Part shown: piece by piece, positions 2,756 through 34,642 of the stretch
Layout of the letters: every line of letters begins with the position of its first letter
Position numbering within the stretch: the stretch's first letter is position 1
IMG/VR virus record: IMGVR_UViG_3300037069_001385
Coordinates: 1-38,935 of that record
Reading direction: 5' to 3' (one strand)
Source: a virus
Length of the DNA: 38,935 nt
Program-made: the position numbers and the translations under genes
The notes under the pieces: model-generated
Database searches by the model: none
What the model saw: only the letters and a program-made list of their open reading frames with translations
What the model was told of the DNA's origin: nothing

Positions 2756-2827
2756 GCGGCATAATGGCACGATTCTGTGCCGCTGTGTCGAGTGCGAAAC
2801 TATCAACTTAATATAAGGATCGAAGCA

Positions 2828-3748: not shown

Positions 3749-4487
3749 AGATGACATAATCCAAGGCACCGATGAATGGAAGGAATCGCGCAAGCGCCGG
3801 ATCGGTGGCACACGGCTTGGTGACATCTATTCGGCCAGGGCATTTACTAAAGAGGATATTATAAACGCGCTGAAAGCCGCACAGATCGATTTCAAGAAAT
3901 CGGCCAAGGTAGGCGAGCTAGAACAGCTACTACCGGATGCATCGCGCCTAGAACTGCTTAAAAACGCACCACGTAAGGCCGGATTCTATGACTTGATAGC
4001 CGAATACCTATCAATAGAACGTGACGGCGAAAATCGAATGGATCGCGGCACCAGGCTTGAGCCGGAAGTACGCCAATGGTTTGCGGAAACGTACCACAAA
4101 GAGGTGATCGAAGTCGGTTTATGTATGAGTGAGATCGACGATCGTATCTACAACTCACCGGATGGCCTAATCCGTAAGTCGCCCAAAAGCAAGAAGTTTA
4201 CCGAAGCACTAGAAATCAAGTGCCTATCACCAGGTCGCCACATCCAAGCGGTCATCGAGAAAAAAGTGCCAGAGGAATACTGGTCACAGATGATGCAATA
4301 CTTTGTCGTCAACGACGATCTTGAAAAGCTTTGGTGGGTATTTCACGATCCTGGCATTGTGACGATCCCGTACTTTGTACTAGAGATCACGCGCGACAGC
4401 TTGGGCGATTGGCCGCAACGCTTGTTGGAGTTTCAAGTCGCACAGCTTAAGCGTATTGATGAGATTATTGAAGAGTTAGCATTTTAA
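3729..4487 (+). CDS. YqaJ/lambda-exonuclease-type nuclease
   Basis: 252 residues. It has the motifs of YqaJ-type alkaline exonucleases of the PD-(D/E)xK group: an N-terminal W-x3-R (DEWKESR), RGTRLEPEV with Glu111, SPDG with Asp145, LEIK with Glu162 and Lys164, and a Gln-containing helix near 187-190. It should degrade the 5' strand of duplex ends to load RecT. Residues 40-70 form an extra helical segment between the first motif and the core that resembles a HeH/SAP-type DNA-binding motif. The start overlaps the recT end by 20 nt; ATG 3738 is an alternative start. Its stop overlaps a downstream ATG (TAATG). Confidence 0.87.
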   Translation: MQPMIIRDDIIQGTDEWKESRKRRIGGTRLGDIYSARAFTKEDIINALKAAQIDFKKSAKVGELEQLLPDASRLELLKNAPRKAGFYDLIAEYLSIERDGENRMDRGTRLEPEVRQWFAETYHKEVIEVGLCMSEIDDRIYNSPDGLIRKSPKSKKFTEALEIKCLSPGRHIQAVIEKKVPEEYWSQMMQYFVVNDDLEKLWWVFHDPGIVTIPYFVLEITRDSLGDWPQRLLEFQVAQLKRIDEIIEELAF

Positions 4488-4510
4488 TGAAGTTATTTAG
4501 GAGTAATCAA

Positions 4511-5047
4511 ATGGAAGCAACAAGAGTAAGCGTAGATCCTAGAAAGATCGCATACTATGAAAAAGGTTTGACAGATGAAAAACGACGAAAAATAGAAGAA
4601 GATAAGATCATAGAGATTATTAAGAGTAAACCCGCTGGTACGAGGATTCGTCTACGAGAGTTTGGTGCGGTGCTTAATATAGAGAGAGATGGTCTTGTCG
4701 ATTGGCGTATTCAGCAATCAATTAAAAGAGGTACGATTGGCCGCAATCTCATCGGCGCACATAGGGTGGGTGGTTACTATTATTGGGTTAATAGCGCCGC
4801 CACTAAAAAACTAAACCTTAAACAATATCAACCAAAAAAAGAGTCTAAACCGAAGGTTAATGAAGCAATCATAGAAGCACCGATGCAACCGGAACTACCA
4901 ATGATTGAAAAACAGTCACCCACAAAAGTTGAAACGCCTATGCCGGTGTTGACATCCAACGATGATATTATTGCAAAAGCAAAAGATTATGCTTGGCAAT
5001 ACAACTCCGATTCGTTGCGTGATTTCATCAAATGGCTTGGTAACTAA
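4511..5047 (+). CDS. Hypothetical DNA-associated protein, AT-rich gene
   Basis: 178 residues from ATG 4511, which has AGGAG eight bases upstream; an in-frame ATG at 4487 overlaps the exonuclease stop and could be used instead. The N-terminal ~100 residues are basic and helical and end in a Gly/Tyr/Trp-rich turn (GGYYYWV), which looks like a winged-helix segment. Residues 110-150 are a Lys/Pro-rich linker, and the tail is a short helical domain ending DFIKWLG. Codon choice is clearly more AT-rich than in the genes on either side, suggesting separate acquisition. Its place between recombination genes suggests a DNA-related role, not proven. Confidence 0.7.
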   Translation: MEATRVSVDPRKIAYYEKGLTDEKRRKIEEDKIIEIIKSKPAGTRIRLREFGAVLNIERDGLVDWRIQQSIKRGTIGRNLIGAHRVGGYYYWVNSAATKKLNLKQYQPKKESKPKVNEAIIEAPMQPELPMIEKQSPTKVETPMPVLTSNDDIIAKAKDYAWQYNSDSLRDFIKWLGN

Positions 5048-5472
5048 TGAAGTTCAACACCGCCGTACAAGTTGAAGCACAAAAGGCGTTTGCCTACCTG
5101 GTGCAACTCACAGAGAAGCAGGGCATAGTCGAAGTAAGGCGCATCAGTCCGAAGCGCACATTGCCGCAAAACAGCTACTTGCATCTACTGATCGGCGCAT
5201 TCGGCCTGGCAACCGGCAACACGATGTTGGATGCCAAGGATCTATACAAGTGGGTCAACCGCGATCTGTACTATAACAAAAAGAAAATTGGCGGCCAGGT
5301 ATTTACGACGGTGCGGAGTTCGGCCGATCTCACCAAAGAAGAAATGGCACATAGTATTGACCGGTTTATGGAGTGGTCAAAAGAACACGGCTACCCGTTG
5401 CCGCCGGCTACCGATCAGGAATGGTTACGGCAAATTGAAAATGAGATTGAAGCAAGCAAACATTTCTTGTAA
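5047..5472 (+). CDS. NinB/Orf-like recombination protein (tentative)
   Basis: 141 residues, starting in a TAATG overlap with the preceding gene. The segment KRTLPQNSYLH followed by a helical region with aromatic residues recalls the 'RT-QN' motif of NinB-type phage proteins, which modulate strand exchange or bind single-stranded DNA. The C-terminal helices carry the pattern W-x5-YPLPP. Its position directly after the RecT/exonuclease pair supports a recombination role. The family call rests on one motif and the context. Confidence 0.6.
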   Translation: MKFNTAVQVEAQKAFAYLVQLTEKQGIVEVRRISPKRTLPQNSYLHLLIGAFGLATGNTMLDAKDLYKWVNRDLYYNKKKIGGQVFTTVRSSADLTKEEMAHSIDRFMEWSKEHGYPLPPATDQEWLRQIENEIEASKHFL

Positions 5473-13412: not shown

Positions 13413-16400
13413 TTACCTAATCTTTACAACTTGCTTGGCTTTGAATGAAGTCGGGCTGATCTTCGGGCTGTTGATCTGTGCCTTGGCTAACAGAGATTTC
13501 AGGTTATCATTGGTGGTCTTGAACTTGGCCGCGTAGGTGTAAGGCGTTATGGCTTTGCTGATTCGGGTGCTGGCGCTCTTTGGCTTCGTGAAGCTGCCGC
13601 CGTAACCGGTATACTTCTTGATTTGTGTCGCCAGGGTATCGGCCTTTTTCTGCAAGGCATCGATCGTGGTTTGTTCGGTTTGCGGATCATGGTTTTTGAT
13701 TTGATCTTGCAAGGTACGGTACTGCTGCATAGCATTGCTCACCCATGTCGCGTAGTCGCCGCTACTCTTAGCGGTGGTCATTGCCAGGCTTTGTTTGGCG
13801 TAGCTCAAACCGTCGTTGTACAGTACGGTGCTTTGGTGCTTCACGGTACCATCAGGTAGCTTGTAGTAGGTCTGATTGCCGATCTGTTTCACCTTATCGT
13901 TGGATGCCTTAAAGAGATCCACGGCGGCCGGATCTACGCCGGTGTTCTTGGCGGTGAGTGACATGGTAGATTTGCCTTGCTGTAGCTGCTGCTTCTGGCC
14001 GCCAGTAAGGGCGTTGCCAGTCTTGAAGTTAGCATCAACATAGGCATTCTGGTGCGCGTTGATGATGCTGTTGATCGCGCTAGTCTTCTGGTTGTCGCTC
14101 ATGGCCTGGTAGTTCGGGTTGCTCATCAGCGTTTGCAAGTCGGTGTGTATGCCTTGGCCGGTGGCGGCTAACATGTCTTGCTGCTGTTTGACGTTGAGCG
14201 AGATGGTTTGCTTGCCAACTTTGAAGTTGGTAGTCGGGGCGATTGCCGGCGACTTGCTGCCAAGCTGGTTGTATAGGCGTTGCAGTTCGTTTGTCACCGC
14301 ATCGTTGCCGTTGATTTGCTTGTTCGGGTAGAACGGATTGATCGTACCCGTGATCGGGTTGCCGTTGTTTTCAGCCTTTTGGCCGCCTTCAACTTGGCCG
14401 AAAATGTTACGCTGTGCGGGCAATCCTTCGCGTAGTCCTGGGATCGTCGAGCGTAATTGATCCCCAAGTGTCTTCGGGTAAGCGCGCGCCGCATTGTCGG
14501 TGCCGCGGGCAATCTGCTGGATCATAGCCGGTACGAATGATCCGGCGGTTGAGTTGACGAAACTGGTTGCGTACTGCTTCGGGTTATTCAAGGTGTTCGC
14601 TACGCCGCTGATGCCTTTCATATACGGCTGGTCGGCTAACAGTTTTGCGCCTGATGCGACGGCGGTAATTGCCGCGTTTTTACCGTTTTGGCCGCTAGAT
14701 AGTGCCTGGTCGAGTGCGCCACCGATACCCAAGGCGATACCGAAGGCACCCATTGCGTTGAGTGATACCCAGGTGTTGCCAACTTTGATCGAGTTCTTAG
14801 TCTTGCCTTCGGCTTGCCATAAGGCTTTTTCTTTCGGATCAGTCGGTTCTTGCAGGGTCAAACGGCCGGAGTGTGACAGTAGCATACCAGTACCGACGAT
14901 AGCGGTGCCGCCAATGGCGCTTTTACCGATCGCATCGACGAACTTACGCTGATCGAAGGTGCCGTGTGCTAGGCCGTCATATAACGTTCTGGCGGCGCGC
15001 AACGTACCGACTGGCGTGTAATCGATAATACCTTTTACACCCATTGCGGCTGGGATACGGCTAAACGGTGCAATCCACATACCCACGGGCATCTTGCCGA
15101 TTTTGATGTGCTGGATACCTTGCGTTACTTTGCCGGCTTCGGTTAGGTTCTGCATGGCAAACTGTGACGCGTAGTTTTCCATCTGCTTTTGCGCGTAGTC
15201 GCTGTTCATGTATTCGGCTACCTTTTTGGCGTTGTCGCCGAACATGGCGCGCGCAATGCGTACCTGGTTGGCTTCTTCCATGCGGTATGCGCCACGGTAG
15301 AAGGTCTTATAAATAGATCCGTGAACACGGTACACCATGCGTTCGTAAGCGCTCTGGTGCTGGCCTTTGCCAAGTTCTTTTTCGAAACCGCCGGTGTGCG
15401 GTAGGTCTACGCCGGTCTTCAAGTGGTAGCCGGCTGCTTTCAAACCTTCATAATTACCCTTCATGTATTTCAGGTAATCAGTTGGTGCGAGCGTCACGGT
15501 GCGGCGCGTCAGGTTTGGCACATTCTTATTGTTGCGGTTCAAGAAGTCTACCCACGATTTCGGTAGGCCGGCAACGGCCTGATCAGCGGCGGCGGCGAAT
15601 GGTTTGTCGATCAATTCCATCGGTGCGGTAATAAGGTGGCTGCTGGCTATCTTAGCGACGGTTTCAAGGCCGGTCAGTAGGCCGGCGCGCCAGTACCCAA
15701 CAACGGCATCCATCTTGCTACGCGGGATCTTATTGTTGACGTAATCGACAAGCTTTTGCGTAGCGATGTCGCGGGTTTCGGTGCCTGGCTTGCTACTTTT
15801 GATGTCTTTCATGTAACTATTGACCGTATCGGCGACTTTACCTTCAAACTTCACGCCGGCTTTTTCGAGCGTGGTTTGCGCGGCATAGCGGATGCCATCA
15901 GGGTTGCGGCGTGATAACTCTTGACCAACGGCCAAACCTTGCGCCTGTACGGTACGATGCGGTGCTAGTTGGCGATATAGATCGCTGGCGGTTTCGTGCT
16001 GGCCTTTGGCATCGAGCGCTTGGGCTACCTTAATGACGCGCATTTGCTGTTCAGTGGTCATGGTGCCAACTTTTTGTTGTAGATCCTTCATGGCCTGTTC
16101 GGTGGCCTTCGGCAAGCTCTTGTTGATCTCTTTCAGCGCGGCTTCACGCAATGGTGCCTGTGGCTGGCGGTCGATCGGGCTGCCTGGATTCTTCTTTAAT
16201 AACGCTTTGGTTTCAGGTGATACGTTGTCATTCTCTGGCCGGCGTACCGTTTTGATCGTGCCGCGTACATCTTTGGCCGGAACGCGCGGGGTTTTGTTGG
16301 TGACATCTTTCGGCTTGTAGAATGGCTTGAGTTCATCGGGTACTTTCGAGGTAGCCGGCGCTTTGGCCTTTGGTGTAACGGCTTTTTCGATCGGCGCTTT

Positions 16401-19400
16401 GCCTTCGACTTGGGCTGTGATTTTCTTATTGTCGGCAATGGCTTTGTCGGCTTTGGCGATTACGGCTTTGTCTTGGGCGATCAGTTTGTCGGCGGCTTTG
16501 GATGTGTCGGCGATCGGGGCTGGTTTGGATTCTGGCTTTGGTATTTCGGCGAAGGGTCGGAGAGCGCCGGATTCGTCGTTGAGTAGGGACTTTTTGGGGG
16601 CTGATGACTTCGGCACATAGTCAACCGTGCCGTCGCTGTGAGGGACGCGGTCGTAGGTGGCGGCGGTTTCAGTTGTGGGCACATTTTTGCCCTTTTCTGA
16701 AATGGTTTTGGGGGCTTCGGCGGTGTTATCGAACTTGGAACCGCTTAATATAACCCGCTTGCCTTGGCGTGCGGCCTCATTCTCGATAGTGAGTGCTTTT
16801 TTGCCGAAATCAACCGCCGCTTGTTCGGATGGTAGCCGCGCGATTTCATTGCCATTGCCGTTTGATACACGCCATTCGCCGTCGTTCCAGGGCTCTACAC
16901 GGACACTACTAATGCCTGATTTCGTATTGACATAGATGTTGTGCTCGCCACTCTGCTTGGGGTAGTCGTTGATGCCTTTGAGGGGCGCGACATCTTTGAT
17001 GTTTTTGGGTGATAGGTCGATGAAGTAGCCGGTGCTCTTCGGGTCGTATGTGTTCTGACTGTGGGATTCATTTACGAGGCGCGTTACGGTGGTCTGCGTC
17101 TTTTTGTCGGCCACCTCGTTCATTTGGAAATCTTTGATTTGCTTGTCGAGGGCGTCAGTTGACGGAGCCTCTTTACTGAATCGGGCCTGATATTGTGCCT
17201 TGAGTTTTTCGGCGGCGGCTGGGCTGAGATTCTTGGCTTTTGCGTTGTATTCAGTGCTCAACTTTTGGTCGAGTGTCCGGCGTGCTTCGAGTATTGAATT
17301 GCGCTGTGTGTTGAGGGCGTTGATGTCTGCGCTCGGCTTCGCCTCAGTCACGCCGATGTGCACGCGGTTGTCGTTCGGGTGCTCGGCGGCGATGCGCTGC
17401 ATGGTGGCATGGTCGCCGGTCTTGGTGGCGTGCTCGAACTCGGTGATGTATTTGGGCTGCACTGACATCGCGTTCATTTGGGCGCGTTGTTTGGGCGTGA
17501 GGGGGTCAGTGATAGGCTGTGTTTTCGGTGCCTCTGGCGCTTTGTAGTCACTGATGCCATATTCTTTTTTAATGGTCGCTACTAGGTGATCCATCGCCGG
17601 TGTAACTTCATGCATGTTATCGGGCGTAAATAATACATGGCCGCCGTAGCGCGGTTCAGTAGGTGCCATGTAGTTGTTGCGGATGCCTTGACCTTGTGAC
17701 TTCTCGCGTAGGTAACTTTCGAATGCGCGCGCAAACATTTCGGTCGGGCGGTGCCAGTAGTCACCCTGATGTTCGGCTGCTGATGCGAAGGCCGATTGCT
17801 TGACCGGCACATCGACGGATTTCGCGCCAGTCTTGCCAAGCACATAGTTGACGACGCGCTGCAATATAGTACCGTGGGTGCCTGGATACTCTTTTATGAT
17901 GGCATCGACGGCCGCTTGTGGGTCGTTATGGTTGCGCTCTAGCAAACTGTCTATCTGTCGCCATCCATGCTTAAGTGCAGGGCTTACATCGAGGTTGGCA
18001 CCTTCTTTGATGGTCATTGGCACTTTGCTGTTGCCTTCGGTGATCGACTTCATTACCTGGCGCATGGCATCGCGTACTTCGGGGTTGGCGGCTTTGCCAT
18101 CGGATGCGTAGTTACCGCGGCCAGGTTTGCCGTTGCCTAAGAAGTCGTCGAGTGCGTGGGCGAACTCATGGCCTAGTGTGCCATCAGCGCCGGTTTTCTT
18201 AGTAATGTTGATTACCTTGTTGGCCGGTTCATAGTGTGCCAGGGCTTTGCTGCCGCCGCGTGATCCGAAGCCAATGCCAAGATCCATCTTCTTGATCAGC
18301 TCTGGCATGTTGACGTTCATCGTCTGGCCGACATCGTGTGCCGCTGCCTGGAATCGTGATAAGTGATCTTTGGCTTCGGTATCCTTGACGTAGTTGCCAA
18401 CTTCCAAACCTTTGAAATTATACTTGTCGCGAATCTGTGTCGGTGACAGGCTAGGTAGCTTTTCGCCGGTGCGCTCATACGGTACCATTTCGCCGCCGTG
18501 TAGTGATGGCTGGCCTTCGGTTGTGCGTGTTGCAACGGCCTTTTTGTCAGCGAATGAGAAGTCGGTAGCGGGTCGGTATAGGGCGGTGCGGATCGCGGCC
18601 GAATTGCCGGATACCACGTTATAGAACTTCGAGCCAAGGTTTTGTTTGACAGCGCGCAAGCGTTCGTAATCGGTCTTAGTGCCGTTCATCACTCTACCAT
18701 CACCTGTTACATACGTGTCGGGTACTTTGCCGCGGAATGCATCGGCGGCGGCCTGGGCTTCTTGTACCGTCTTAGCGTTCTTAACATTTTCTACAAACTT
18801 TGGTATGTCGTTTACGAACATGGCGCGCGCCGCGGGGCTGGCCGATGGTCGAGTAGGTATCGAACTGATCAGAGTGTGTTTGACTTGTTCTAGGTGCGGA
18901 TCGCCGGATCGGTTCACTTCGTACTTGGCATTGTCGCCTAATACACGTTGCTTGGTGACGAGGTTGTTGGCGGCGCGTTCACCCTGGCTTTCGATGTACT
19001 GCAAGTTATCGCGGCCGATCGTGCGCAACTTTGACATATCCTTCTTACTGCCAAACATCTTCTCGCCGGTATCCTGTACGGCTTTGCTGGCTTGCTGCTT
19101 GGCGTTCATCAGTGTAATGTTCTTGACTTCGGGCGTGTCGGATGGTTTAACGCTCAAGTTTGGATTGGCTTGCTTGATAGCGTTTTCTAGTCCGACTTCT
19201 TTTTGTACGTTCTGATGGAAGTCCACCGGATTAATACCGCTGATGTCGAGGTGTGCGGCACCGGCTTTGCTGGCGAAGTCTTGCGGTGTAGCGGATGATC
19301 GGGCAAGTTCGTTGAGCGCCGCGGTGTTTTCGGGGCTAGATCCTGGAATCCTGATATAACCACTGGATGTGTCGGCGGCTTGTCTGTATGCCTGGTGCGT

Positions 19401-20564
19401 GTCATACGTTCGGCGCGCGCCTATTGCATTGTCTACGGCTGCAACGTCGCTCTGGTTGGTACCGCCGGCTTTACGCATCACGTTGTAGTAGTTCTGCATA
19501 TCCTGGTTGGTCAGATCCATACCGTTTGAGTAACCTTGTGCGGCATCACGTACCTTTTGGGCTGATGCTAGTTCGCCGTCAGAGATGTTACGGAACGGCT
19601 TGTTGGTCACGATGTCATTCGCGGTACTTGCCACCGCGTCTTTGGCCTGGCTAATAATTTTTGGTACCTGGCTATCCTGTGCGGCGCGGATAATCGCGGG
19701 TGTAGCGGCGGCGGCCGTATCCATTGCGCCATGTAAGCCACCGAACGCGCCAAACATTTCAGCGCCTTGGATCGCGGCGGTTTTCAGATCTTTGGCGCTG
19801 GCATTCGGGTTATTGCCTAGTGTGCTTGATACGTTGAATGCGCTACCGACAGGCGCTTGCGTTGCGGCATCAACGGCGGTTCTGGTGGCGGCGTTCAGTA
19901 CGGGGCTGGTGGCACTATCGACTATGCCGTTGACGAGTGGATCAGTTACCGCGCCAACTGCTCTACCGATGCCAGGTGCGGCCACGGTTAGGCCGGCGGC
20001 TACGGTGTTACCTAAGATCTCTTTCGCGATGCCGCCTTGGTTGGTGGTACCGAAGGCTTGCTGTTGGATGTCGGTAATTGGTTTGTTCTGCACTTCGCGG
20101 GCTACGGCGGCGGGTGCGTAGGCGGCTGCCTTACCCAAATTGAAGAATGGCCGTACTATCATTGCGGGTAGGGAATTGGCTTGTGCTTGATCGGCTTGCT
20201 GTTGAGCGATTTGCGCGGTTGCCTGGTCGCCGCGTAGTTGGGCGGCTTCGGTGACGGCCGGATAGATAATATCACCCATCACGGTGTTCGCGGCGGGCTG
20301 GACTACCGCTTGATCAACGCCGTGGGTGAGTTGGTGGAATACGCTTTGTGGCGGGGCGACGGGCGCGGTCTGTTGCCAGGTGCGGCCGTTATCGAAGGGG
20401 TTTACTTGATTCCAAGCGCGCTCAAACACATTGGGTTGCGGTGGTGCTGCTGCCGGTCGGGGCTGTTGGGCGATGCGTTGGGCGACGGTTGCCGCGGTTT
20501 GGCCGTTATCGAAGGGGTTTACCTGTGCCACCGCTTCGTTAAGCATATTTCGTAAACTAAACAT
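13413..20564 (-). CDS. Giant internal virion / polyvalent protein with LPD1 metallopeptidase-like domain
   Basis: 2383 residues, the largest gene. The N-terminus has two NPFDNG motifs (16-21 and 55-60) and a Pro/Gln linker. Residues ~110-340 are Ala-rich with hydrophobic helices. Residues ~705-815 match the large-polyvalent-protein LPD1 pattern (YNFKGLEVGNYV, GFGSRGGSKALAHYEP, then GHEFAHALD), with zinc-type His799, Glu800 and His803. Residues ~1250-1410 are a Lys/Pro/Ala-rich spacer. Residues ~1410-1960 are helical with amphipathic and hydrophobic stretches (about 1641, 1878, 1940) that recall membrane-active ejection proteins. The C-terminal ~400 residues are Gln-rich coiled coil. Such proteins are packed in the head and ejected with the DNA to form a channel and protect the genome; the peptidase may act on host or virion protein. 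It shares an N-terminal tag with the gene before it. Confidence 0.8.
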   Translation of the reverse strand: MFSLRNMLNEAVAQVNPFDNGQTAATVAQRIAQQPRPAAAPPQPNVFERAWNQVNPFDNGRTWQQTAPVAPPQSVFHQLTHGVDQAVVQPAANTVMGDIIYPAVTEAAQLRGDQATAQIAQQQADQAQANSLPAMIVRPFFNLGKAAAYAPAAVAREVQNKPITDIQQQAFGTTNQGGIAKEILGNTVAAGLTVAAPGIGRAVGAVTDPLVNGIVDSATSPVLNAATRTAVDAATQAPVGSAFNVSSTLGNNPNASAKDLKTAAIQGAEMFGAFGGLHGAMDTAAAATPAIIRAAQDSQVPKIISQAKDAVASTANDIVTNKPFRNISDGELASAQKVRDAAQGYSNGMDLTNQDMQNYYNVMRKAGGTNQSDVAAVDNAIGARRTYDTHQAYRQAADTSSGYIRIPGSSPENTAALNELARSSATPQDFASKAGAAHLDISGINPVDFHQNVQKEVGLENAIKQANPNLSVKPSDTPEVKNITLMNAKQQASKAVQDTGEKMFGSKKDMSKLRTIGRDNLQYIESQGERAANNLVTKQRVLGDNAKYEVNRSGDPHLEQVKHTLISSIPTRPSASPAARAMFVNDIPKFVENVKNAKTVQEAQAAADAFRGKVPDTYVTGDGRVMNGTKTDYERLRAVKQNLGSKFYNVVSGNSAAIRTALYRPATDFSFADKKAVATRTTEGQPSLHGGEMVPYERTGEKLPSLSPTQIRDKYNFKGLEVGNYVKDTEAKDHLSRFQAAAHDVGQTMNVNMPELIKKMDLGIGFGSRGGSKALAHYEPANKVINITKKTGADGTLGHEFAHALDDFLGNGKPGRGNYASDGKAANPEVRDAMRQVMKSITEGNSKVPMTIKEGANLDVSPALKHGWRQIDSLLERNHNDPQAAVDAIIKEYPGTHGTILQRVVNYVLGKTGAKSVDVPVKQSAFASAAEHQGDYWHRPTEMFARAFESYLREKSQGQGIRNNYMAPTEPRYGGHVLFTPDNMHEVTPAMDHLVATIKKEYGISDYKAPEAPKTQPITDPLTPKQRAQMNAMSVQPKYITEFEHATKTGDHATMQRIAAEHPNDNRVHIGVTEAKPSADINALNTQRNSILEARRTLDQKLSTEYNAKAKNLSPAAAEKLKAQYQARFSKEAPSTDALDKQIKDFQMNEVADKKTQTTVTRLVNESHSQNTYDPKSTGYFIDLSPKNIKDVAPLKGINDYPKQSGEHNIYVNTKSGISSVRVEPWNDGEWRVSNGNGNEIARLPSEQAAVDFGKKALTIENEAARQGKRVILSGSKFDNTAEAPKTISEKGKNVPTTETAATYDRVPHSDGTVDYVPKSSAPKKSLLNDESGALRPFAEIPKPESKPAPIADTSKAADKLIAQDKAVIAKADKAIADNKKITAQVEGKAPIEKAVTPKAKAPATSKVPDELKPFYKPKDVTNKTPRVPAKDVRGTIKTVRRPENDNVSPETKALLKKNPGSPIDRQPQAPLREAALKEINKSLPKATEQAMKDLQQKVGTMTTEQQMRVIKVAQALDAKGQHETASDLYRQLAPHRTVQAQGLAVGQELSRRNPDGIRYAAQTTLEKAGVKFEGKVADTVNSYMKDIKSSKPGTETRDIATQKLVDYVNNKIPRSKMDAVVGYWRAGLLTGLETVAKIASSHLITAPMELIDKPFAAAADQAVAGLPKSWVDFLNRNNKNVPNLTRRTVTLAPTDYLKYMKGNYEGLKAAGYHLKTGVDLPHTGGFEKELGKGQHQSAYERMVYRVHGSIYKTFYRGAYRMEEANQVRIARAMFGDNAKKVAEYMNSDYAQKQMENYASQFAMQNLTEAGKVTQGIQHIKIGKMPVGMWIAPFSRIPAAMGVKGIIDYTPVGTLRAARTLYDGLAHGTFDQRKFVDAIGKSAIGGTAIVGTGMLLSHSGRLTLQEPTDPKEKALWQAEGKTKNSIKVGNTWVSLNAMGAFGIALGIGGALDQALSSGQNGKNAAITAVASGAKLLADQPYMKGISGVANTLNNPKQYATSFVNSTAGSFVPAMIQQIARGTDNAARAYPKTLGDQLRSTIPGLREGLPAQRNIFGQVEGGQKAENNGNPITGTINPFYPNKQINGNDAVTNELQRLYNQLGSKSPAIAPTTNFKVGKQTISLNVKQQQDMLAATGQGIHTDLQTLMSNPNYQAMSDNQKTSAINSIINAHQNAYVDANFKTGNALTGGQKQQLQQGKSTMSLTAKNTGVDPAAVDLFKASNDKVKQIGNQTYYKLPDGTVKHQSTVLYNDGLSYAKQSLAMTTAKSSGDYATWVSNAMQQYRTLQDQIKNHDPQTEQTTIDALQKKADTLATQIKKYTGYGGSFTKPKSASTRISKAITPYTYAAKFKTTNDNLKSLLAKAQINSPKISPTSFKAKQVVKIR
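20384..20405 (+). repeat. 22-bp direct repeat copy A (encodes an NPFDNG motif)
   Basis: Identical to 20501-20522. Read on the minus strand it encodes the second VNPFDNG motif of the giant virion protein. Confidence 0.8.
20501..20522 (+). repeat. 22-bp direct repeat copy B (encodes an NPFDNG motif)
   Basis: Identical to 20384-20405, 117 bp apart, in frame. It encodes the first VNPFDNG motif of the giant virion protein. Confidence 0.8.
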
Positions 20565-25264: not shown

Positions 25265-25631
25265 TGTCGCGGGCTTCCTTTTCCATCTCTTTTAGTTTGC
25301 GCAAGCTTTCGAGTGCGGCCTGGCGGTCGGCGCGGTCGGCAACACGCATGATCTTTTGGGCGCGGCCTTTCAGCTTTTCCAAAAACTTCATGTGTAAGTC
25401 GCGGGCAATCAACTGGTCGCGGGCTAGTTCTTTGTCGTGGATCTCTACCACCATCTTGCGTAGGTCGCACACTTCGTTCAGCTCTTCGTCGATCCATTCG
25501 AGAATGATTTGAACGCCTGGCGATACTTGCTTGGCTTCTTCGATCTCACGCTGCCGGCGCGCGTCGTAGTGGGCTTCGGCGCGGCGTTGTGCGGCGCTGC
25601 TCATGCCTGATTCGAAAACGTTTGACATCAT
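25257..25631 (-). CDS. Coiled-coil protein downstream of the portal
   Basis: 124 residues, almost entirely charged helix (Glu/Arg/Lys/Ala heptads from about residue 12 to 120). Two ATG codons lie at the start (25631 and 25628); the second has the better distance to AGGTAA. It overlaps the portal stop. The place and character fit a second small scaffold or portal-associated factor; no family is named. Confidence 0.55.
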   Translation of the reverse strand: MMSNVFESGMSSAAQRRAEAHYDARRQREIEEAKQVSPGVQIILEWIDEELNEVCDLRKMVVEIHDKELARDQLIARDLHMKFLEKLKGRAQKIMRVADRADRQAALESLRKLKEMEKEARDNA

Positions 25632-28093
25632 TTACCTACCGGCGCACTCTGGCGCTGTAATTCTTGAATAATCGCTTGCGGATCGCCGCCCATGTGTTCG
25701 GCGGTGAGTGCTGCCGCGGCTGTCGGCGCGTCTACGCCGTATAGCTGCTGCACTTGCTGTACGTGGCCTGGGTCGGGCGCGAATGACGGCATACGCGCGT
25801 TCTGTGTGCTGGCGATACCCTTTTGCTGTGCGTTGGCGGATTGCAGATCGCTTGGCATGGCGGTCAGTTCGTGGCTTTGCCGTTGGGCTTCGAGCTGTAG
25901 CTTTTTAGCGTCTAGCTGCAAGTGGGCTTCGTCGAGCGCTTGTTGGTGGGACTGCTGCTGTGCCTTAAGCGCCTGTTCTGGCGTAACCTGGCTGCTTGCA
26001 TCTGGCGCGCCTTGTTTGCCGGCGACTTGCGCGGCTTGGATGTCGGCCTGTGACGGTTGGTTTAGGCCGTTCGGATCGGGCTGTATGCCGGCCATTGCTT
26101 TGATCTGTGCCTTCTCGCCAGGCGTGGTGTTCGGATCGGCCAGGATGTCACCCATATCGAGCATGTCATCTTCAAGCGGGGTGCCAGGCGGGATCGTAAC
26201 GCCACCGGCTTGCATGGCATACGGCATGGCCGCGGTCGGTACTTTACCCATAAGCCGCACTTGTGGCGGGTCGATGATCGGGAAGGGCATTTGTGATGCT
26301 TGCTGGCGCTCTTGGTCGTTCATCTTGCGTAAGATCTTCTGCAAGTTTTCGAGGTTCATCTTAGCAAGCAAACTGTAGTAGACTTCACCGATGTCGATCT
26401 TCCATCCGGCTTGTGCCAGGTAGTAGGCGACTTGCGGGGTCATTGTCTGCAAGGTTTCGCGGATCACCTGTATTTCTTCTTCGGCGGTCAGTTCGTAACC
26501 GGTCGTCGGATCTACTTCGAAATCGAAGGTGCGGCGTAACTTATCCCATACCATTTTCACCTTGTTGCTTGGCTGGCCGTCAGTACCGGCTTCGAAGAAG
26601 TCTTGCGGTATGCCGGCGGTGAGTAGATCTTGCTTCTCATCGTCGGTAATCCGTCGCCAGTCTTCGCCTTGCATGTTAGCGAACTGGTTGTTGATCATCG
26701 ATCGGGCAACTGCCGCCCACGCTTCGTCGATGTTCTCTGAAAAGTCTTGGTCGTCGATCGACAAGTTTTGCTGTTGGAAGGCCACACCCTTTGGTGTCTT
26801 TGAGTAGTTAGGATCGCCGGCACCGCTGCCGATGCTGGTGTCGCCGGTCGGTATCAACTGGTTCAGGCTGGTCTTGTACATAGCCATGCGGTTTGGCAAT
26901 TCGGAGTACACCGCGTTACCTAATTCCATGCGCTCTACTTTGGCCTGTCCGACGTACCAGTTAGCATCTTGCGCGTAGACAAGTGAATCTTCGTCTACCT
27001 GGTCTTCGTCGCCCATGATTTGCTTCGGTGGGCGTAAGCCAAGTTGGGTTGCCAGTACGTCGGCTTGCCGCATGTAGTCGAGTACGTTTTGCGTACCGCC
27101 GGCCAGTTTGACGATGCCGATGCCGTAGGGGTTTACGAAGTCTTGGTAACAGTACACGTAATGACAGGGGATGTCGCCGGTCGGGTCAGGGTTTGACCAA
27201 CTCTGTACGGCCTTGCTCTTGTACATCAGTTTGAATGGTGCGTTGACACCGCGCTGCCAAGCGATGTAGAAGTGGATGCCGGCTTTGCGTACACCTTTTT
27301 CTTGCTGATCGCGGGGCATTTCGTTGCCCTTGCGTTCGGTTTCTTCGTCGGCTGCTATGATCTGGTCGAGTAAGTTCAGATTCCATTCGTTAAACACATC
27401 TTCGGCTGCATCGGGATTGTCGTCGGGATCGCTATCATCATCGCCGTCGTGGTCGGCATCCTTGGTCTTGGCGGGCGTGTTGTCACCTTCGGTTGGCAAT
27501 GGGTCGGTGTCTTTGACTTCGGTAGCAATCTTGCCTTTGATTTCGTCATTCGCCTGGTCGCGCATGTCTTTGACTTGGTTGATGTCGAGCCAGAAATCCC
27601 AAAAGATGATGTCGGAATCCTGGTCGCTGTCTTTGCCGGCTTGCAGTTTGACATCTTGCGCGTAGGGTACGATGAAGTCTTGGCCGCAATAGTTACCGCG
27701 TTCGACTTGCATGTTGATAATTGGTTGGCCGCCAAAGATCGCGGCTTTGCGCGCGGCATCTTTCAGCTTGCGGCGTGGCGTGGCTTTGCTGTGCGCATTT
27801 TTCATAATGTAGCGAAACTCGATGTTCGCCAGTTCGGTGATCCAGTCTTCGTCTTCGTCGGCAACAAACGCGCGGCCGCCGATCTTCTCGCGGATCACGC
27901 GCTTGGCTAACTTAAAAAGACTCGCCGCTAGGGTGCCATCGTTTACTTCGGGCAAGCTGTCGTCGAGATCTTCTAGTAAGCCGTTGTCGGCCAGTCGTTC
28001 GTATTGCGGGTAATCGATGCGCCAAATGATCGCTTCTTTATCTGCTTCGGTGTAAGCGTCGTATATTTCTGCTTCGTTGAGGTAATTCGCCAC
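25628..28093 (-). CDS. Portal protein
   Basis: 821 residues, GTG start with AAGGA upstream. Features of large podovirus portals: an N-terminal helical and wing region, a core with PCHYVYCYQDFVNPYGIGIVKL and a KTPKGVAFQQQ segment (about 430-445) typical of the clip/stem part, a long helical stretch around 455-620, and a Gln/Ala-rich C-terminal barrel (about 680-821). It forms the 12-fold ring at the packaging vertex, docks TerL and carries the adaptor. A very acidic insert at 195-235 includes a DxDxDG loop (Asp212, 214, 216, Gly217) of calcium-binding type. It is the first gene after a strong promoter. Confidence 0.82.
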   Translation of the reverse strand: MANYLNEAEIYDAYTEADKEAIIWRIDYPQYERLADNGLLEDLDDSLPEVNDGTLAASLFKLAKRVIREKIGGRAFVADEDEDWITELANIEFRYIMKNAHSKATPRRKLKDAARKAAIFGGQPIINMQVERGNYCGQDFIVPYAQDVKLQAGKDSDQDSDIIFWDFWLDINQVKDMRDQANDEIKGKIATEVKDTDPLPTEGDNTPAKTKDADHDGDDDSDPDDNPDAAEDVFNEWNLNLLDQIIAADEETERKGNEMPRDQQEKGVRKAGIHFYIAWQRGVNAPFKLMYKSKAVQSWSNPDPTGDIPCHYVYCYQDFVNPYGIGIVKLAGGTQNVLDYMRQADVLATQLGLRPPKQIMGDEDQVDEDSLVYAQDANWYVGQAKVERMELGNAVYSELPNRMAMYKTSLNQLIPTGDTSIGSGAGDPNYSKTPKGVAFQQQNLSIDDQDFSENIDEAWAAVARSMINNQFANMQGEDWRRITDDEKQDLLTAGIPQDFFEAGTDGQPSNKVKMVWDKLRRTFDFEVDPTTGYELTAEEEIQVIRETLQTMTPQVAYYLAQAGWKIDIGEVYYSLLAKMNLENLQKILRKMNDQERQQASQMPFPIIDPPQVRLMGKVPTAAMPYAMQAGGVTIPPGTPLEDDMLDMGDILADPNTTPGEKAQIKAMAGIQPDPNGLNQPSQADIQAAQVAGKQGAPDASSQVTPEQALKAQQQSHQQALDEAHLQLDAKKLQLEAQRQSHELTAMPSDLQSANAQQKGIASTQNARMPSFAPDPGHVQQVQQLYGVDAPTAAAALTAEHMGGDPQAIIQELQRQSAPVGK

Positions 28094-28958: not shown

Positions 28959-29570
28959 TTATACGTGCATCTTTAATCGCTTGTGTTCTGGCCGGCGGTG
29001 CTGCTTGGCTGCCGGATTCGACGCTTTCATTACTTGCCACATGCCAGCACATGCCATAACTGCATCGTCGTGGGTACCTTGGGCGGCTTCGGGCTTGCCC
29101 TTCTGATTGACAACGAACGTCTGATGTTGGGTTTGGGTTTCTTCGTCGTAGATGATGATCTGCTTCGATTCGTAAGCCATAAGCCAGTCGCCAAGCATTC
29201 GGGATCGTGACACTTCGGTTGTATCCCATCCAGGCTTATCAGTCGGTTTGCCTTGTTCGTCGCGCATGTAGTAGATCGTGTATGTGCCAGGGTTGTACTT
29301 GATCAGGTTGTACATCTCGCTTGCGCCGCCGTTGTTGCGCTCTAAGCATACGATTGGTTTGACGCTGGTCTGCTTATAGATCCAGGATAGCGCGGCAATA
29401 ATAAATGGCGTGACTTCGGCGGCCACGCCATGCTTCTGCATTACTAGCGGTACATCCATGCGTGTTTTGCTGCCGAACTGCATGAAGTTGCTGTCTTCGC
29501 CGCCTTGCGAGGTATCGCCGAAACAAACAAAAAACTCGCCCTTTTGCAGTTCACGGAAGAGTCTAAACAC
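28959..29570 (-). CDS. Terminase large subunit, nuclease domain (separate gene)
   Basis: 203 residues, GTG start with AGAGGAAT at the proper distance. The whole product is the RNase-H-like nuclease half of TerL: FGDTSQGGEDSNF (Asp20, start of strand 1), CLERNNGG (Glu78) and GTHDDAVMACAGMW (Asp169/Asp170) are the metal-binding triad. It cuts the concatemer at the start and end of packaging. The ATPase half is encoded by a different gene at 30252-31274, with three small genes between. Together they give about 543 residues, the size of an ordinary TerL. The break falls in the linker between the domains. Confidence 0.83.
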   Translation of the reverse strand: MFRLFRELQKGEFFVCFGDTSQGGEDSNFMQFGSKTRMDVPLVMQKHGVAAEVTPFIIAALSWIYKQTSVKPIVCLERNNGGASEMYNLIKYNPGTYTIYYMRDEQGKPTDKPGWDTTEVSRSRMLGDWLMAYESKQIIIYDEETQTQHQTFVVNQKGKPEAAQGTHDDAVMACAGMWQVMKASNPAAKQHRRPEHKRLKMHV

Positions 29571-29790
29571 TGTAATTCCTCTCTTCGATCAACTGATGCA
29601 GTTCATCGTGTTCGACTTCGGTTAGATCGTGGTGCAAAAAATGGTGCGCGACTAAGGAATGCAAGATCTCTTTGATGATCTCTTCGATTTCATTGTTCGG
29701 TGGCGTAGCGATTGGGAACTTGATGTTAGGATGCTCAACGAGCGATCGAAGCGGCGCGTAGTGTTTGGAATGTTCAACGTCGGTCATCAT
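29563..29790 (-). CDS. Small His/Glu-rich protein inside the split terminase
   Basis: 75 residues, mostly helical, with a dense His/Glu stretch (SLVAHHFLHHDLTEVEHDELHQ, within about 45-68) that could bind a metal. It overlaps the previous gene by ATGA and the nuclease gene by 8 nt. No homing-endonuclease or intein motif is present. Confidence 0.55.
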   Translation of the reverse strand: MMTDVEHSKHYAPLRSLVEHPNIKFPIATPPNNEIEEIIKEILHSLVAHHFLHHDLTEVEHDELHQLIEERNYSV

Positions 29791-30152
29791 GCTGGATCGC
29801 TCTCAAAAATGTTATTGATCGTCACTTCTTCTTCGGGTGCGGCTTGCGGTACGCTCTTACCGGCGATGATCGCGGCCAGGTTGCCGCCAAGTGCGCCGAA
29901 GTGTGTGAACATGTTCGCCCACAAACTTACCTCTTCGATAATCAGGCCAGGCGTGTTGCCGTATAGCCAACGGAAGTGCGGCACCACTAACATGACGGTC
30001 GCCCAAAAGATCGTGAAGAAGGCGTTGAGTACAAACTGCCAACGCGGATCGGTTGCCAGGCGGTGTGGTAACCACGCGATCAACGCGAACACCATGATGA
30101 TTGGGCGCATCCAGGTCGGGAATGCGAGCTTGAGTTGTTTGTGTTGGATCAT
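29787..30152 (-). CDS. Multi-pass membrane protein inside the split terminase
   Basis: 121 residues. Hydrophobic segments at about 16-30, 40-60 and 84-102, with a basic N-terminus and an acidic C-terminal tail (about 105-121). Both ends overlap neighbours by ATGA. A membrane protein between two terminase halves is unexpected; it could be a holin-like or superinfection-exclusion protein. The function is unknown. Confidence 0.6.
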   Translation of the reverse strand: MIQHKQLKLAFPTWMRPIIMVFALIAWLPHRLATDPRWQFVLNAFFTIFWATVMLVVPHFRWLYGNTPGLIIEEVSLWANMFTHFGALGGNLAAIIAGKSVPQAAPEEEVTINNIFESDPA

Positions 30153-30283
30153 AGTTTGCCCTTCTTTTGGATTTGTTTCATCAGTAACCGCGTCTTACGT
30201 TGCGTGAAGACAAGTTGTGTGCCTGGCACATACCCTTCGCGTTGCTTTGGTTTACGCTTTAGCCATTGAAAGAGATTCAACAT
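30149..30283 (-). CDS. 44-residue basic protein overlapping the TerL ATPase gene
   Basis: ATG 30283 lies inside the 3' end of the ATPase gene (32-nt overlap); the stop overlaps the next ATG (ATGA). About a third of residues are Lys/Arg (FQWLKRKPKQ, RKTR, KQIQKKGK), with an amphipathic start. It could bind nucleic acid. It is the first of the three genes separating the TerL halves. Confidence 0.5.
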   Translation of the reverse strand: MLNLFQWLKRKPKQREGYVPGTQLVFTQRKTRLLMKQIQKKGKL

Positions 30284-31274
30284 ACTCGCTCTTCTTTATC
30301 GGTTTACGGATTCTGTTGTTATGGTACAGCATCGCTTCGGAATCGAAGAAGGTTGTGCCGGCCATCAGAAACGCTTCAATGTCTTTGGTTGGGTACTCGC
30401 GTAGCTTCTTCTTGTCTTGCAGTTCGCGCGTCTTGATGTAGTGCCAGTAACATTGATCGCGCGTCGCTAGTCCTTCTTCAAACACACGCAAGTAGTACGC
30501 CGGCATCGCCCAATCGCTAGGCGCGGGTCGCGTGTACGGCTTGTGCAAGTACCAGGCCAGGAATCGGCTGTTAAACTCGCTCTTGCCGTCTTTGCCTAAG
30601 AAATACTCCTTGCTGAAATAGTCGCCCATCATGTTACCGGTCGATTCGCGAAAGATCTTGCCGTAGTTCTCTGGCACCTGTTCTTCGGCACCGGTGATCA
30701 GTGATTCGGCACTTAGGATCGGCGTGTTGGGATAAAAAGCCGGCTCTGTCCAGTGAATGTTTTGCAGGGTGCTACCACGACCGGATACCTTCGCGCCGGC
30801 GGTTGCCGTCTGTATTTGGGTACCGTTCTTGGCGATCAATAGGTTGGTGGTGTCAGTAGCGAAGAAGTGCGGCCGCAACTTCTGTGCTTCCAGGCGGTGC
30901 GCGGGGTTGGCGTAATCGCCGCCGTTGCACTTGAGCATGTAGCTTTCGATAAACATGTTGATGCGCGCGAAGTGCGTGGCCGTTTCTTTATCTTTGTGGC
31001 TGTACACCACGCCATCAACCATCGGGATCTCGCCGATCGCGCTTAGTATGAAGTCGGTCGCAAACATGGCGCTGATGACGGTGCTAATACCGAACTGACG
31101 GCCTTTCAGATCGTTCTCGCGGATGCCTTGCAAGGTTTCGCCGTAAGTGGCTTGTAGATCGTCGTACCAAAGGTTTTGTACGTCGTTGTAGATGAACGGG
31201 ATGAACTCGCCGTGTTTGGTCTTGATGTAATACCATTCGGCTGCAAACGATCGGTAGTCTACGGCGTATGACAT
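30252..31274 (-). CDS. Terminase large subunit, ATPase domain (separate gene)
   Basis: 340 residues from ATG 31274, with AAGGGC upstream. It holds the TerL motor motifs: Walker A KGRQFGIST (57-65), an IHWTEPAF segment with Glu177 as the catalytic acid after the strand of Walker B, and RESTGN (209-214) as the coupling motif. It should hydrolyse ATP to push DNA through the portal. The sequence ends in the interdomain linker; no nuclease residues follow. That half is in the gene at 28959-29570. The start overlaps a small ORF end (TGATG). Confidence 0.83.
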   Translation of the reverse strand: MSYAVDYRSFAAEWYYIKTKHGEFIPFIYNDVQNLWYDDLQATYGETLQGIRENDLKGRQFGISTVISAMFATDFILSAIGEIPMVDGVVYSHKDKETATHFARINMFIESYMLKCNGGDYANPAHRLEAQKLRPHFFATDTTNLLIAKNGTQIQTATAGAKVSGRGSTLQNIHWTEPAFYPNTPILSAESLITGAEEQVPENYGKIFRESTGNMMGDYFSKEYFLGKDGKSEFNSRFLAWYLHKPYTRPAPSDWAMPAYYLRVFEEGLATRDQCYWHYIKTRELQDKKKLREYPTKDIEAFLMAGTTFFDSEAMLYHNNRIRKPIKKSEYVESLSMAKA

Positions 31275-31438: not shown

Positions 31439-31945
31439 TTATGAGTTACCTTCTTTTTTGACGAACGTGTTGTTACCGATGAAAGTGAAGCTGTTACCAC
31501 CGGCCGGTTCTTTGGAATCATGCGCCCCCATCAGTTTCAACGCACGATCGCTACCTTTCAAACGCATGTCGAGCTGTGCGCGTTCGTCGCCGTCGGGGTC
31601 TTTGTACTCTAGCGCTTTTTGAATCGGCGCGACTGCTGCTTCGACTGTAATGCCAGCTTTTTCTAGGGCTAATTCTAACGCTTCACGGATGCTAGGCTTT
31701 GCTAGGTTTTCCGCGCCTACAGATCGTGCGACGGTAGAATCCTTGACATTATAGGCAATCATGGCGGCTTCTGTATTCGTCTTGCCTTTGGCTTTTTCTT
31801 TGATAAACACTCGCTGCTTGTGTGTCAATCGCCGTGGCTTCTTAGGCTTCTCTGCAACTACTGGCGTGTCAACAGTCTTTACCGATGCACCGCCGGCGCT
31901 AAAATCAGGCTGCTTGGGTTGTGGCTGATTGGTCGGTGCCGTCAT
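31439..31945 (-). CDS. Terminase small subunit
   Basis: 168 residues from ATG 31945; a GTG at 32014 would lengthen it but lies deep inside the previous gene. After a disordered Pro/Lys start, residues 38-90 (RLTHKQRVFIKEKAKGKTNTEAA, then SIREALELAL) have the helix-turn-helix pattern of TerS DNA-binding domains, and a helical oligomerisation region follows (about 95-140). TerS rings recognise the packaging site and regulate TerL. It lies directly upstream of the ATPase gene. Confidence 0.75.
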   Translation of the reverse strand: MTAPTNQPQPKQPDFSAGGASVKTVDTPVVAEKPKKPRRLTHKQRVFIKEKAKGKTNTEAAMIAYNVKDSTVARSVGAENLAKPSIREALELALEKAGITVEAAVAPIQKALEYKDPDGDERAQLDMRLKGSDRALKLMGAHDSKEPAGGNSFTFIGNNTFVKKEGNS

Positions 31946-32354
31946 CAGTCTTGTCGCTTTCGTTAGTTTCGTTATTGCTTCCCTGTTCTGTCGGTTCGCT
32001 ATCAGAGGTAACACTAGGATCTACGGGGGTGGTCGGCGGTGTCGGTTCGCTAGTCGCGCCGGCTGCTTCGCCACTTGGTACCTTTTCAGATCCAATCGAA
32101 GTAGGTGCGGGGTTGACGTTGCTGTTGATCGCTTCGGCTTGCTCTGGCGTTTTGTCGGCCGGTTCGGGGATGGTCGCATTGGGTGCCTGGTCGTTGCCGG
32201 CTTCAATCGCTTGCACAAACGCGTTGGCTTCATCAAACGTGGCGAACGTATCGTGTACTTCGCCTACTTCGCCGTTGTCGGTAAACTCAACTCTCGCGAA
32301 AAAGCGGCCGTCTTGCTGCTTGTGAATCGTCTGATCAGTGACTTCTCTACTCAT
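31905..32354 (-). CDS. Acidic, largely disordered protein
   Basis: 149 residues. A small beta-type N-terminus (about 8-50: GRFFARVEFTDNGEVGEVHDTF) is followed by a long Pro/Thr/Ser/Glu/Asp-rich, low-complexity tail. It overlaps TerS by 41 nt. No function can be assigned. Confidence 0.55.
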   Translation of the reverse strand: MSREVTDQTIHKQQDGRFFARVEFTDNGEVGEVHDTFATFDEANAFVQAIEAGNDQAPNATIPEPADKTPEQAEAINSNVNPAPTSIGSEKVPSGEAAGATSEPTPPTTPVDPSVTSDSEPTEQGSNNETNESDKTDDGTDQSATTQAA

Positions 32355-33230: not shown

Positions 33231-33670
33231 ACATTATGCCGACCATAAACAGGTTTGAAATCGTGGTCGCAAGCGCACTCGCCGGCGATATAGTCACACC
33301 ACAATGCACCGGTACCGCGAAGTGTTTTGCGGGTGTTGGCGCGCCAGCTTTTGTCTTTCACCAGTTTCGCCCAGTCACGGCCGCCTTCGTCTTTGGCGAT
33401 CCGGTTGATCTCACGTTGAATGCTGTACTGGCCGCGGCACCGGTTGCCTTGTAGCAAGACTGGCGCATCGAAATCGGGTATTTGTATCGCATCAGCTTCG
33501 GTCGCTCTGTTTTTGGTGATCTTGACGATCTGGCTGCTCATCAACGTGTCGTCGTCAAGTTCGATCGGAAACGGCTTTTTGGCTTCGAGCCATTTCACTT
33601 TTAGATCGAAGCCGTCAGTATCATCCAGGCTGTATGTTTCGCCGCCGCGAATGGTGATGGTGTAACTCAT
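33227..33670 (-). CDS. Hypothetical protein downstream of the initiator gene
   Basis: 147 residues, AGGAG before the ATG. Beta-type N-terminal half (about 1-60), then a helical basic region (EINRIAKDEGGRDWAKLVKDK) and a C-terminal Cys/His set (C near 124, C-x-C near 131, then HD, H). Being next to the replication initiator, it may help replication; this is by position only. Confidence 0.55.
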   Translation of the reverse strand: MSYTITIRGGETYSLDDTDGFDLKVKWLEAKKPFPIELDDDTLMSSQIVKITKNRATEADAIQIPDFDAPVLLQGNRCRGQYSIQREINRIAKDEGGRDWAKLVKDKSWRANTRKTLRGTGALWCDYIAGECACDHDFKPVYGRHNV

Positions 33671-34473
33671 TTCATAACTCCTTTACTCTTCGGTCGCCAA
33701 GCGTGAGTACTTTGCTGGTCTTTGATGTGGTCTTGGATCGCTTCTTTGATCTGTATGCGTTTGGTGTAGAGGTCAAGCGCGTTGCTGATCCGTGGTTTGT
33801 AGGCCATATCGATGCGCTGGTACTGATCGCGCATGAAGGTAAGGTAGTTGATGATCGTTTGCGGGTTGTCTTCGCGATACATTGCACTAATTTTTGCCCG
33901 TAACGTGGTGTGGTTAAGTACCGGCAATTTGTAGGCTTTGATGCATTCGTAATACAGCTTTTTGATTTGTTCTTTTGGATCGTCGCCAGTATCTACGTTA
34001 GTAGATACTATATGTTTGTTATTGTTTGTATTTGTTTGTTTTATATTGCTTGCGCAAACCTTTGCGCATCGCTTGGCAAGATCTTGCGCATCACTGGAAA
34101 AATCTTGCGCATCACTCACTTTCTGATGAGCAACTTTTTGCGCATCACTTTTGGGCTGTTGTGCAACTTTTTGCGCATCCCATTTTTTCGGCTTGTTTAT
34201 GGTGATCACAGAACCACGCGGGGTGCGTAGCGTCGAAACATAACCGCCGGCAACGATCGATTGTAGCCAATAGGTGTAAGTACGCCGTGACACCTTGCCA
34301 AACTCCTTGGCAAACATTTCATAGGTGATGGGCTGCCCGCCTAAAACTTTGTCAGTATCCTTCGGCTGCTTATCAAGAAACCATAGATACAACCAAATGG
34401 CGCTACCTAGCTTATCAAAGTGCTTCTGTTCGAGTATGCCATTGCGCGCGCCAATGTTGTAGCTAGGCTTCAT
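33667..34473 (-). CDS. Replication initiator with internal origin
   Basis: 268 residues from ATG 34473 (GGGGA upstream). Residues 48-95 read as a winged helix (YEMFAKEFGKVSRRTYTYWLQSI, then the wing GYVSTLRTPRGSVITI), a layout known from phage O-type and DnaD-type initiators. Residues 98-140 are an Ala/Gln/Lys-rich linker with four DAQ motifs (99, 110, 121, 128), which are the translation of DNA iterons. A low-complexity Asn/Thr region (~142-165) is the translation of an AT-rich tract. The C-terminal ~100 residues are helical, a likely helicase-loader contact. No polymerase or helicase is encoded, so the protein would recruit host machinery. It overlaps both neighbours. Confidence 0.72.
   Translation of the reverse strand: MKPSYNIGARNGILEQKHFDKLGSAIWLYLWFLDKQPKDTDKVLGGQPITYEMFAKEFGKVSRRTYTYWLQSIVAGGYVSTLRTPRGSVITINKPKKWDAQKVAQQPKSDAQKVAHQKVSDAQDFSSDAQDLAKRCAKVCASNIKQTNTNNNKHIVSTNVDTGDDPKEQIKKLYYECIKAYKLPVLNHTTLRAKISAMYREDNPQTIINYLTFMRDQYQRIDMAYKPRISNALDLYTKRIQIKEAIQDHIKDQQSTHAWRPKSKGVMK
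33988..34179. other. Putative replication origin (iterons, AT-rich tract, inverted repeat)
   Basis: Five exact copies of TTGCGCATC (plus strand) at 34062, 34084, 34105, 34138 and 34171, spaced 22, 21, 33 and 33 bp, close to whole helical turns. Next to them is an AT-rich tract with repeated TGTTTGT (about 34010-34052), then a perfect 9-bp inverted repeat (33988-33996 with 34001-34009). The same order is known from the lambda origin inside gene O. It lies within the initiator gene. Confidence 0.65.
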
Positions 34474-34642
34474 CACGCAATCCCCATCGTAACTCGTTAC
34501 GGATGCCAAGCGCATCTTCTAAGCACTCTTCACAGATCGACTTGTTGAGATTGGCGAAGAACAGTAGCCAATAATCGTACAGCAAGCCGCAATTATCGCA
34601 TCGCTGTTGCTCTGTCGGTTCGATCTCTTCTAGCTTTGCCAC
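34463..34642 (-). CDS. 59-residue zinc-ribbon-like protein
   Basis: GTG 34642 has AGAAGG at the right distance and lies just below a hairpin. The product has two CxxC pairs (CDNC at 15-18 and CEEC at 37-40) spaced as in a zinc ribbon, and an acidic C-terminus. The frame stays open upstream to a TTG at 34825, but that part is dense with inverted repeats. It overlaps the initiator gene by 11 nt. Confidence 0.6.
   Translation of the reverse strand: MAKLEEIEPTEQQRCDNCGLLYDYWLLFFANLNKSICEECLEDALGIRNELRWGLRDEA

Follow-up and report, generated by a model that had tools for sequence, protein, structure and literature searches.

In the IMG/VR virus record analysed here along its whole length of 38,935 bases (hereafter the window), the terminase large subunit (TerL) is encoded by two minus-strand genes, one for a packaging ATPase and one for a nuclease, which occupy the position of a TerL gene between the terminase small subunit (TerS) gene upstream and the portal gene downstream (Table 1). 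The distance between the two genes, put at approximately 680 bp on the same strand in an initial sequence-only reading of this DNA, is 681 nt, and three small ORFs lie within it. Neighbouring ORFs along the chain ATPase/44-aa/121-aa/75-aa/nuclease overlap by 32, 4, 4 and 8 nt, respectively. The two TerL domains are not joined in one polypeptide in the window, being encoded by separate ORFs which are in the same frame and are separated by seven in-frame stop codons, representing all three kinds. Profiles of both halves, when compared to all frames of the window, matched the ATPase and nuclease genes only. The split of terL in the window is confirmed. Elsewhere in the window, a very large ORF of 2,383 aa (13413-20564) retrieved PHROG matches only to large proteins of unknown function, RecT/RecE/NinB-like recombination genes are located on the plus strand (2777-5472), and a DnaD-like helicase loader is specified by the minus strand (33667-34515).

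Table 1 Genes of the split terL locus and neighbouring packaging genes in the window
Feature	Position	Strand	Observations
TerL ATPase gene	30252..31274	-	KGRQFGIST, catalytic Glu, RESTGN; AlphaFold model similar to T4 gp17 ATPase domain
44-aa basic ORF	30149..30283	-	Weakest gene call at the locus
121-aa small membrane protein (cargo)	29787..30152	-	Two hydrophobic segments
75-aa His-rich small protein (cargo)	29563..29790	-	Similar to cargo ORFs found at this junction in L063 and L010
TerL nuclease gene	28959..29570	-	RNase H fold, D19/E77/D168; PHROG terminase match
Terminase small subunit (TerS)	31439..32014	-	PHROG 51, Pfam Terminase_2
Portal protein	25628..28093	-	Weak PHROG portal match; homologous ORFs in matching place in L146 and L003

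The ATPase ORF encompasses 340 aa from its ATG, with an alternative GTG one codon earlier, and the nuclease ORF encompasses 203 aa from a GTG, in agreement with the separate starts initially ascribed to the two genes. The ATPase gene ends after its motifs, as had been read from the sequence: KGRQFGIST (Walker A), the catalytic Glu (E178 counted from the GTG, corresponding to the previously indicated Glu177 when counted from the ATG) and FRESTGN are all present, and K58, R60, G63, S65, E178 and E211 are invariant among 33 sequences. An AlphaFold model of this half (pLDDT 89), the top PDB match of which is the ATPase domain of T4 gp17, predicts a complete ATPase core followed by a transmission subdomain, and this half is recognized as a packaging ATPase by both sequence (Walker A, catalytic Glu, coupling motif) and fold match. 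The nuclease gene was likewise correctly described as commencing just before the first nuclease Asp, which is residue 19 of the protein; D19, E77, D168 and D169 (D168/D169 providing the last acidic position) are invariant among 34 sequences. The corresponding model (pLDDT 91) has the nuclease domains of T4 and RB49 gp17 as its top PDB matches, a profile of the nuclease also recovers gp17 by sequence, and an RNase H-like nuclease with an acidic triad is identified by sequence and fold match together. Both structure models were built on alignments of members of the clade described below.

Pfam returned zero matches for the ATPase half and left the nuclease half unmatched, and in PHROGs a confident match was obtained for the nuclease half only, the single family matching the ATPase half having an E value of 0.2; this is attributed to the strong divergence of the sequences. 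With tblastn, each half retrieved one-chain TerLs at about 25-28% identity. For both halves, dN/dS relative to the nearest relatives (L010 and L063) was 0.10-0.18, and both genes are, as judged from such comparisons, under purifying selection.

Relatives were collected by means of IMG/VR scans and a genome scan, and were classified with profile HMMs. Following the removal of duplicates, the clade consists of the window and 36 others, located on viral and bacterial contigs. The two halves are specified by different ORFs in the window and in 36/36 of the other distinct members, and three further bacterial genomes also carry a split TerL. In a tree containing 35 split and 30 continuous rows, every split row is placed on one side of a fully supported branch and every continuous row is placed outside; therefore, one origin suffices to account for the split. 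In more distant relatives TerL is continuous. Identity to the window falls to about 28% for the ATPase, and likewise for the nuclease, among the split sequences. In an alignment with continuous homologues, the break is positioned in the linker joining the two domains, a short segment that follows the EYPTYDxEAFLxGGxxFFD region and precedes the first nuclease strand, and both domains are preserved in full. Isolates represented in a phage collection included none belonging to the split clade (best identity <30%). Of the candidate relatives, L001 proved to be a spurious match, and L032 was rejected as a split TerL as it resembles an ordinary TerL that has been frameshifted. A distant TerL (L116, 1-1978) seemingly contains an interruption of about 250 nt at the linker, in which a 69-aa ORF may be present and for which Rfam yielded no intron match; this TerL may possibly represent a second, independent split at the linker. 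Being a single contig without close relatives, it was left out of the clade.

The genome scan placed two members on contigs of metagenome-assembled genomes (MAGs), named Bacteroidetes and Candidatus Saccharibacteria. The Bacteroidetes-named member is a 40.6-kb contig marked 'loop' and is for this reason probably a free phage; 394 other genomes from the phylum of this MAG contained no split TerL. When 380 genomes from the phylum of the Saccharibacteria MAG and 393 from its class were searched, split TerLs were retrieved in four genomes. One of these, G705, harbours its split TerL (L162, with flanks L161, L163 and L164; G705:C1:120000-198205) on a 198-kb contig of a genome of roughly 600 kb, with FtsH/MurJ on one side and Tgt, CysS, RmuC, DnaX, L2, RpoC and RpoB on the other, and, judging from this gene content, it is plainly an integrated prophage. 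The four genomes, including this prophage, therefore indicate that part of the clade infects hosts of the Saccharibacteria class. On the contig of the Saccharibacteria MAG (L146, 2254-3297 and 8532-10649), a tyrosine integrase-like gene, TerS, a split TerL and a portal gene are present, the portal being 31% identical to that of the window.

In most members the two genes overlap by 1-26 nt, so that the nuclease gene starts, in a different frame, before the ATPase gene has ended. The frame offset between the halves is not uniform, falling into three classes (24, 12 and 2), and all three stop codons are used to terminate the ATPase gene across the relatives. Shine-Dalgarno matches of at least 4 nt precede 66% of the nuclease starts, as compared to 14% of 1,058 other ATGs within the same genes. 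In gap-less members the Shine-Dalgarno bases lie in the last ATPase codons (e.g. AAAGAGGTGGAATATG in L061). In the window, the GTG start of the nuclease gene is directly preceded by AGAGAGGAATTACA. Considering that the nuclease start overlaps the preceding stop and that the Shine-Dalgarno bases are found within the last codons of that preceding gene, we infer that the nuclease is translated in coupling with whichever gene precedes it. The last small ORF at the junction, where such ORFs (here termed cargo) are present, overlaps the nuclease start by 8, 8, 8, 4, 8, 4 and 8 nt in the window, L010, L052, L063, L065, L071 and L111, respectively, and by 1 nt in L002. In cargo-bearing genomes it would thus usually be the last cargo ORF that takes over the role played by the ATPase end in front of the nuclease. 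The 44-aa ORF of the window begins at the position which is the nuclease start site in gap-less relatives.

Cargo was found in eight lineages: the window (three ORFs), L002, L010 and L071 (one each), L052 (one to two), L063 and L065 (two each) and L111 (two to three), with an intervening length of 193-681 nt, and its distribution requires at least five changes on the tree. The 75-aa His-rich protein of the window is 33% identical over 72 aa (E about 1e-5 in a comparison of 12 proteins) to an 85-aa ORF in the same place in L063, and more weakly resembles a 79-aa ORF in L010, these two being the nearest relatives of the window on the tree; among phage records no relatives of this protein were found. 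A further small cargo protein is common to L065 (3719-3886) and L071 (3559-3759), with 47% identity over 36 aa and at the same ATPase-nuclease junction. The 121-aa membrane protein had no relatives in the comparison of junction ORFs or among phage records, the length of its ORF being insignificant by itself (P about 0.13 in shuffles), and no convincing repeats flank the insert of the window. The three gap genes did not cause the split: most relatives are split with overlapping ORFs and no gap genes, and others carry different small genes at this place. On these grounds, the comparison of loci indicates that the split came first and that small genes were inserted later, the three of the window being late cargo at an older split. 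Since the split also exists without cargo, we do not think that cargo is needed for the motor.

Taken together, the gene comparisons and structure models make it very probable that this lineage permanently encodes TerL as two proteins that are translated separately, a packaging ATPase and an RNase H-fold nuclease. In the proposed mechanism, the first protein would provide the ATPase core and transmission subdomain, and the second, the translation of which would be coupled to the preceding gene, is predicted to be the headful/concatemer nuclease. The two proteins would then join non-covalently on the portal to form a two-tier motor such as that formed by one-chain TerLs, and the open junction between their genes would tolerate small accessory genes, the three of the window having been added after the split. 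That the two chains come together as one motor is the step that we infer, and for the complete reading, i.e. a natural two-protein terminase in which the ATPase and the nuclease form separate rings held non-covalently on the portal, with a coupled and open gene junction serving as entry site for accessory genes, the probability is estimated at roughly 0.65. A motor of two chains is unexpected from the best-studied system, because the ATPase and nuclease domains of T4, when deprived of their hinge, retain their activities and lose DNA translocation (PMC9958956). Given this hinge requirement, either the domains are coupled in another way in this lineage, or translocation is performed by the ATPase alone and the nuclease is confined to cutting.

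The latter alternative, according to which the ATPase is a stand-alone motor of the phi29 kind and the separated nuclease acts outside the translocating ring, is the best of the competing explanations, though an unlikely one. It draws on the vestigial nuclease of phi29-type motors, (PMC7672431), and on the fact that the ATPase half comprises a complete ATPase with its transmission subdomain. Against it, the two genes are adjacent, and mostly overlapping, across the whole clade, and the ATPase half resembles T4 gp17; in other respects this alternative agrees with the data. As regards the phi29 gp16 type of packaging ATPase itself, it has no active nuclease partner, whereas a nuclease with a full triad adjoins the ATPase here.

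Far less probable is programmed frameshifting, by which gap-less relatives would produce a fused protein and the separate starts would be secondary. In many members the two genes do overlap by about 17 nt and stand in a +1 relation, and in one group CTT-TAG occurs before the end of the overlap; however, the frame relation, the overlap length and the stop codon all vary, the nuclease has its own Shine-Dalgarno sequence and start, and a frameshift could not fuse the halves across the intervening 193-681 nt in the window and the other seven cargo-bearing lineages. Readthrough or an alternative genetic code was rejected, given that each of the three stop codons occurs between the halves, which in most relatives are in different frames. 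That the gap is an intervening sequence (a group I/II intron, an intein or a homing endonuclease insertion), either removed from the product or a recent breaker of the gene, is hardly credible: group I introns are indeed known in phage terL genes (PMC11878797), but an Rfam intron search of the window and nine related loci (eight of them clade members) yielded no credible match, relatives carry different inserts and most have none, and neither a homing nuclease nor an intein domain occurs in the gap ORFs, in line with what had been read from the sequence. Splicing would also be unable to fuse the halves, because gap-less relatives possess overlapping ORFs in another frame. Finally, an assembly error or a decaying gene has a negligible probability, since, even though the window itself is a single metagenomic contig and another TerL (L032) does look broken by a frameshift, dozens of independent assemblies, as well as MAG-borne copies, show the same split, dN/dS is low and the catalytic residues are invariant. 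Overall, introns, inteins and homing insertions, frameshifting and readthrough, misassembly and a pseudogene are each excluded or strongly disfavoured as explanations.

With respect to known systems, T4 gp17 is the top structural match of both halves and shares with them both predicted folds, the Walker A motif, the catalytic Glu, the coupling motif and the Asp-Glu-Asp triad, yet it is a single chain with a hinge reported to be essential for translocation (PMC9958956), whereas the window employs two genes. Continuous TerLs, such as those of Vibrio phages (e.g. MG592575) and of the IMG/VR loci L062, L021 and L118, are homologous (24-30% identity) but represent a single ORF of about 500-600 codons. 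The terL genes of Bastillevirinae are similarly interrupted by several hundred nt, though by self-splicing group I introns that restore one chain, while the window is without an intron. DNA polymerase A of the OM43 phages MEP401/402 also consists of two ORFs with a small ORF between them; this is a different enzyme, for which a possible intron was discussed by the authors (PMC10580990). No published split TerL was found in the open-access literature. To our knowledge, TerL has been described as one chain throughout the tailed phages. TerL itself is already known, and the interest of this lineage lies in keeping apart, by nature, two domains which the best-studied motor apparently requires in one chain.

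Phages with a split TerL may be missed or misannotated in marker-gene surveys, the ATPase half having no Pfam match and one PHROG at E 0.2. As the two domains have been kept as separate proteins over deep divergence, the coupling between ATPase and nuclease becomes directly testable, and the split lineage offers a ready-made two-component motor for reconstitution as well as a natural test of the hinge requirement of T4. The tether long thought essential for the motor may be unnecessary: if the two-ring terminase is true, the interdomain tether of TerL would be dispensable for DNA translocation.
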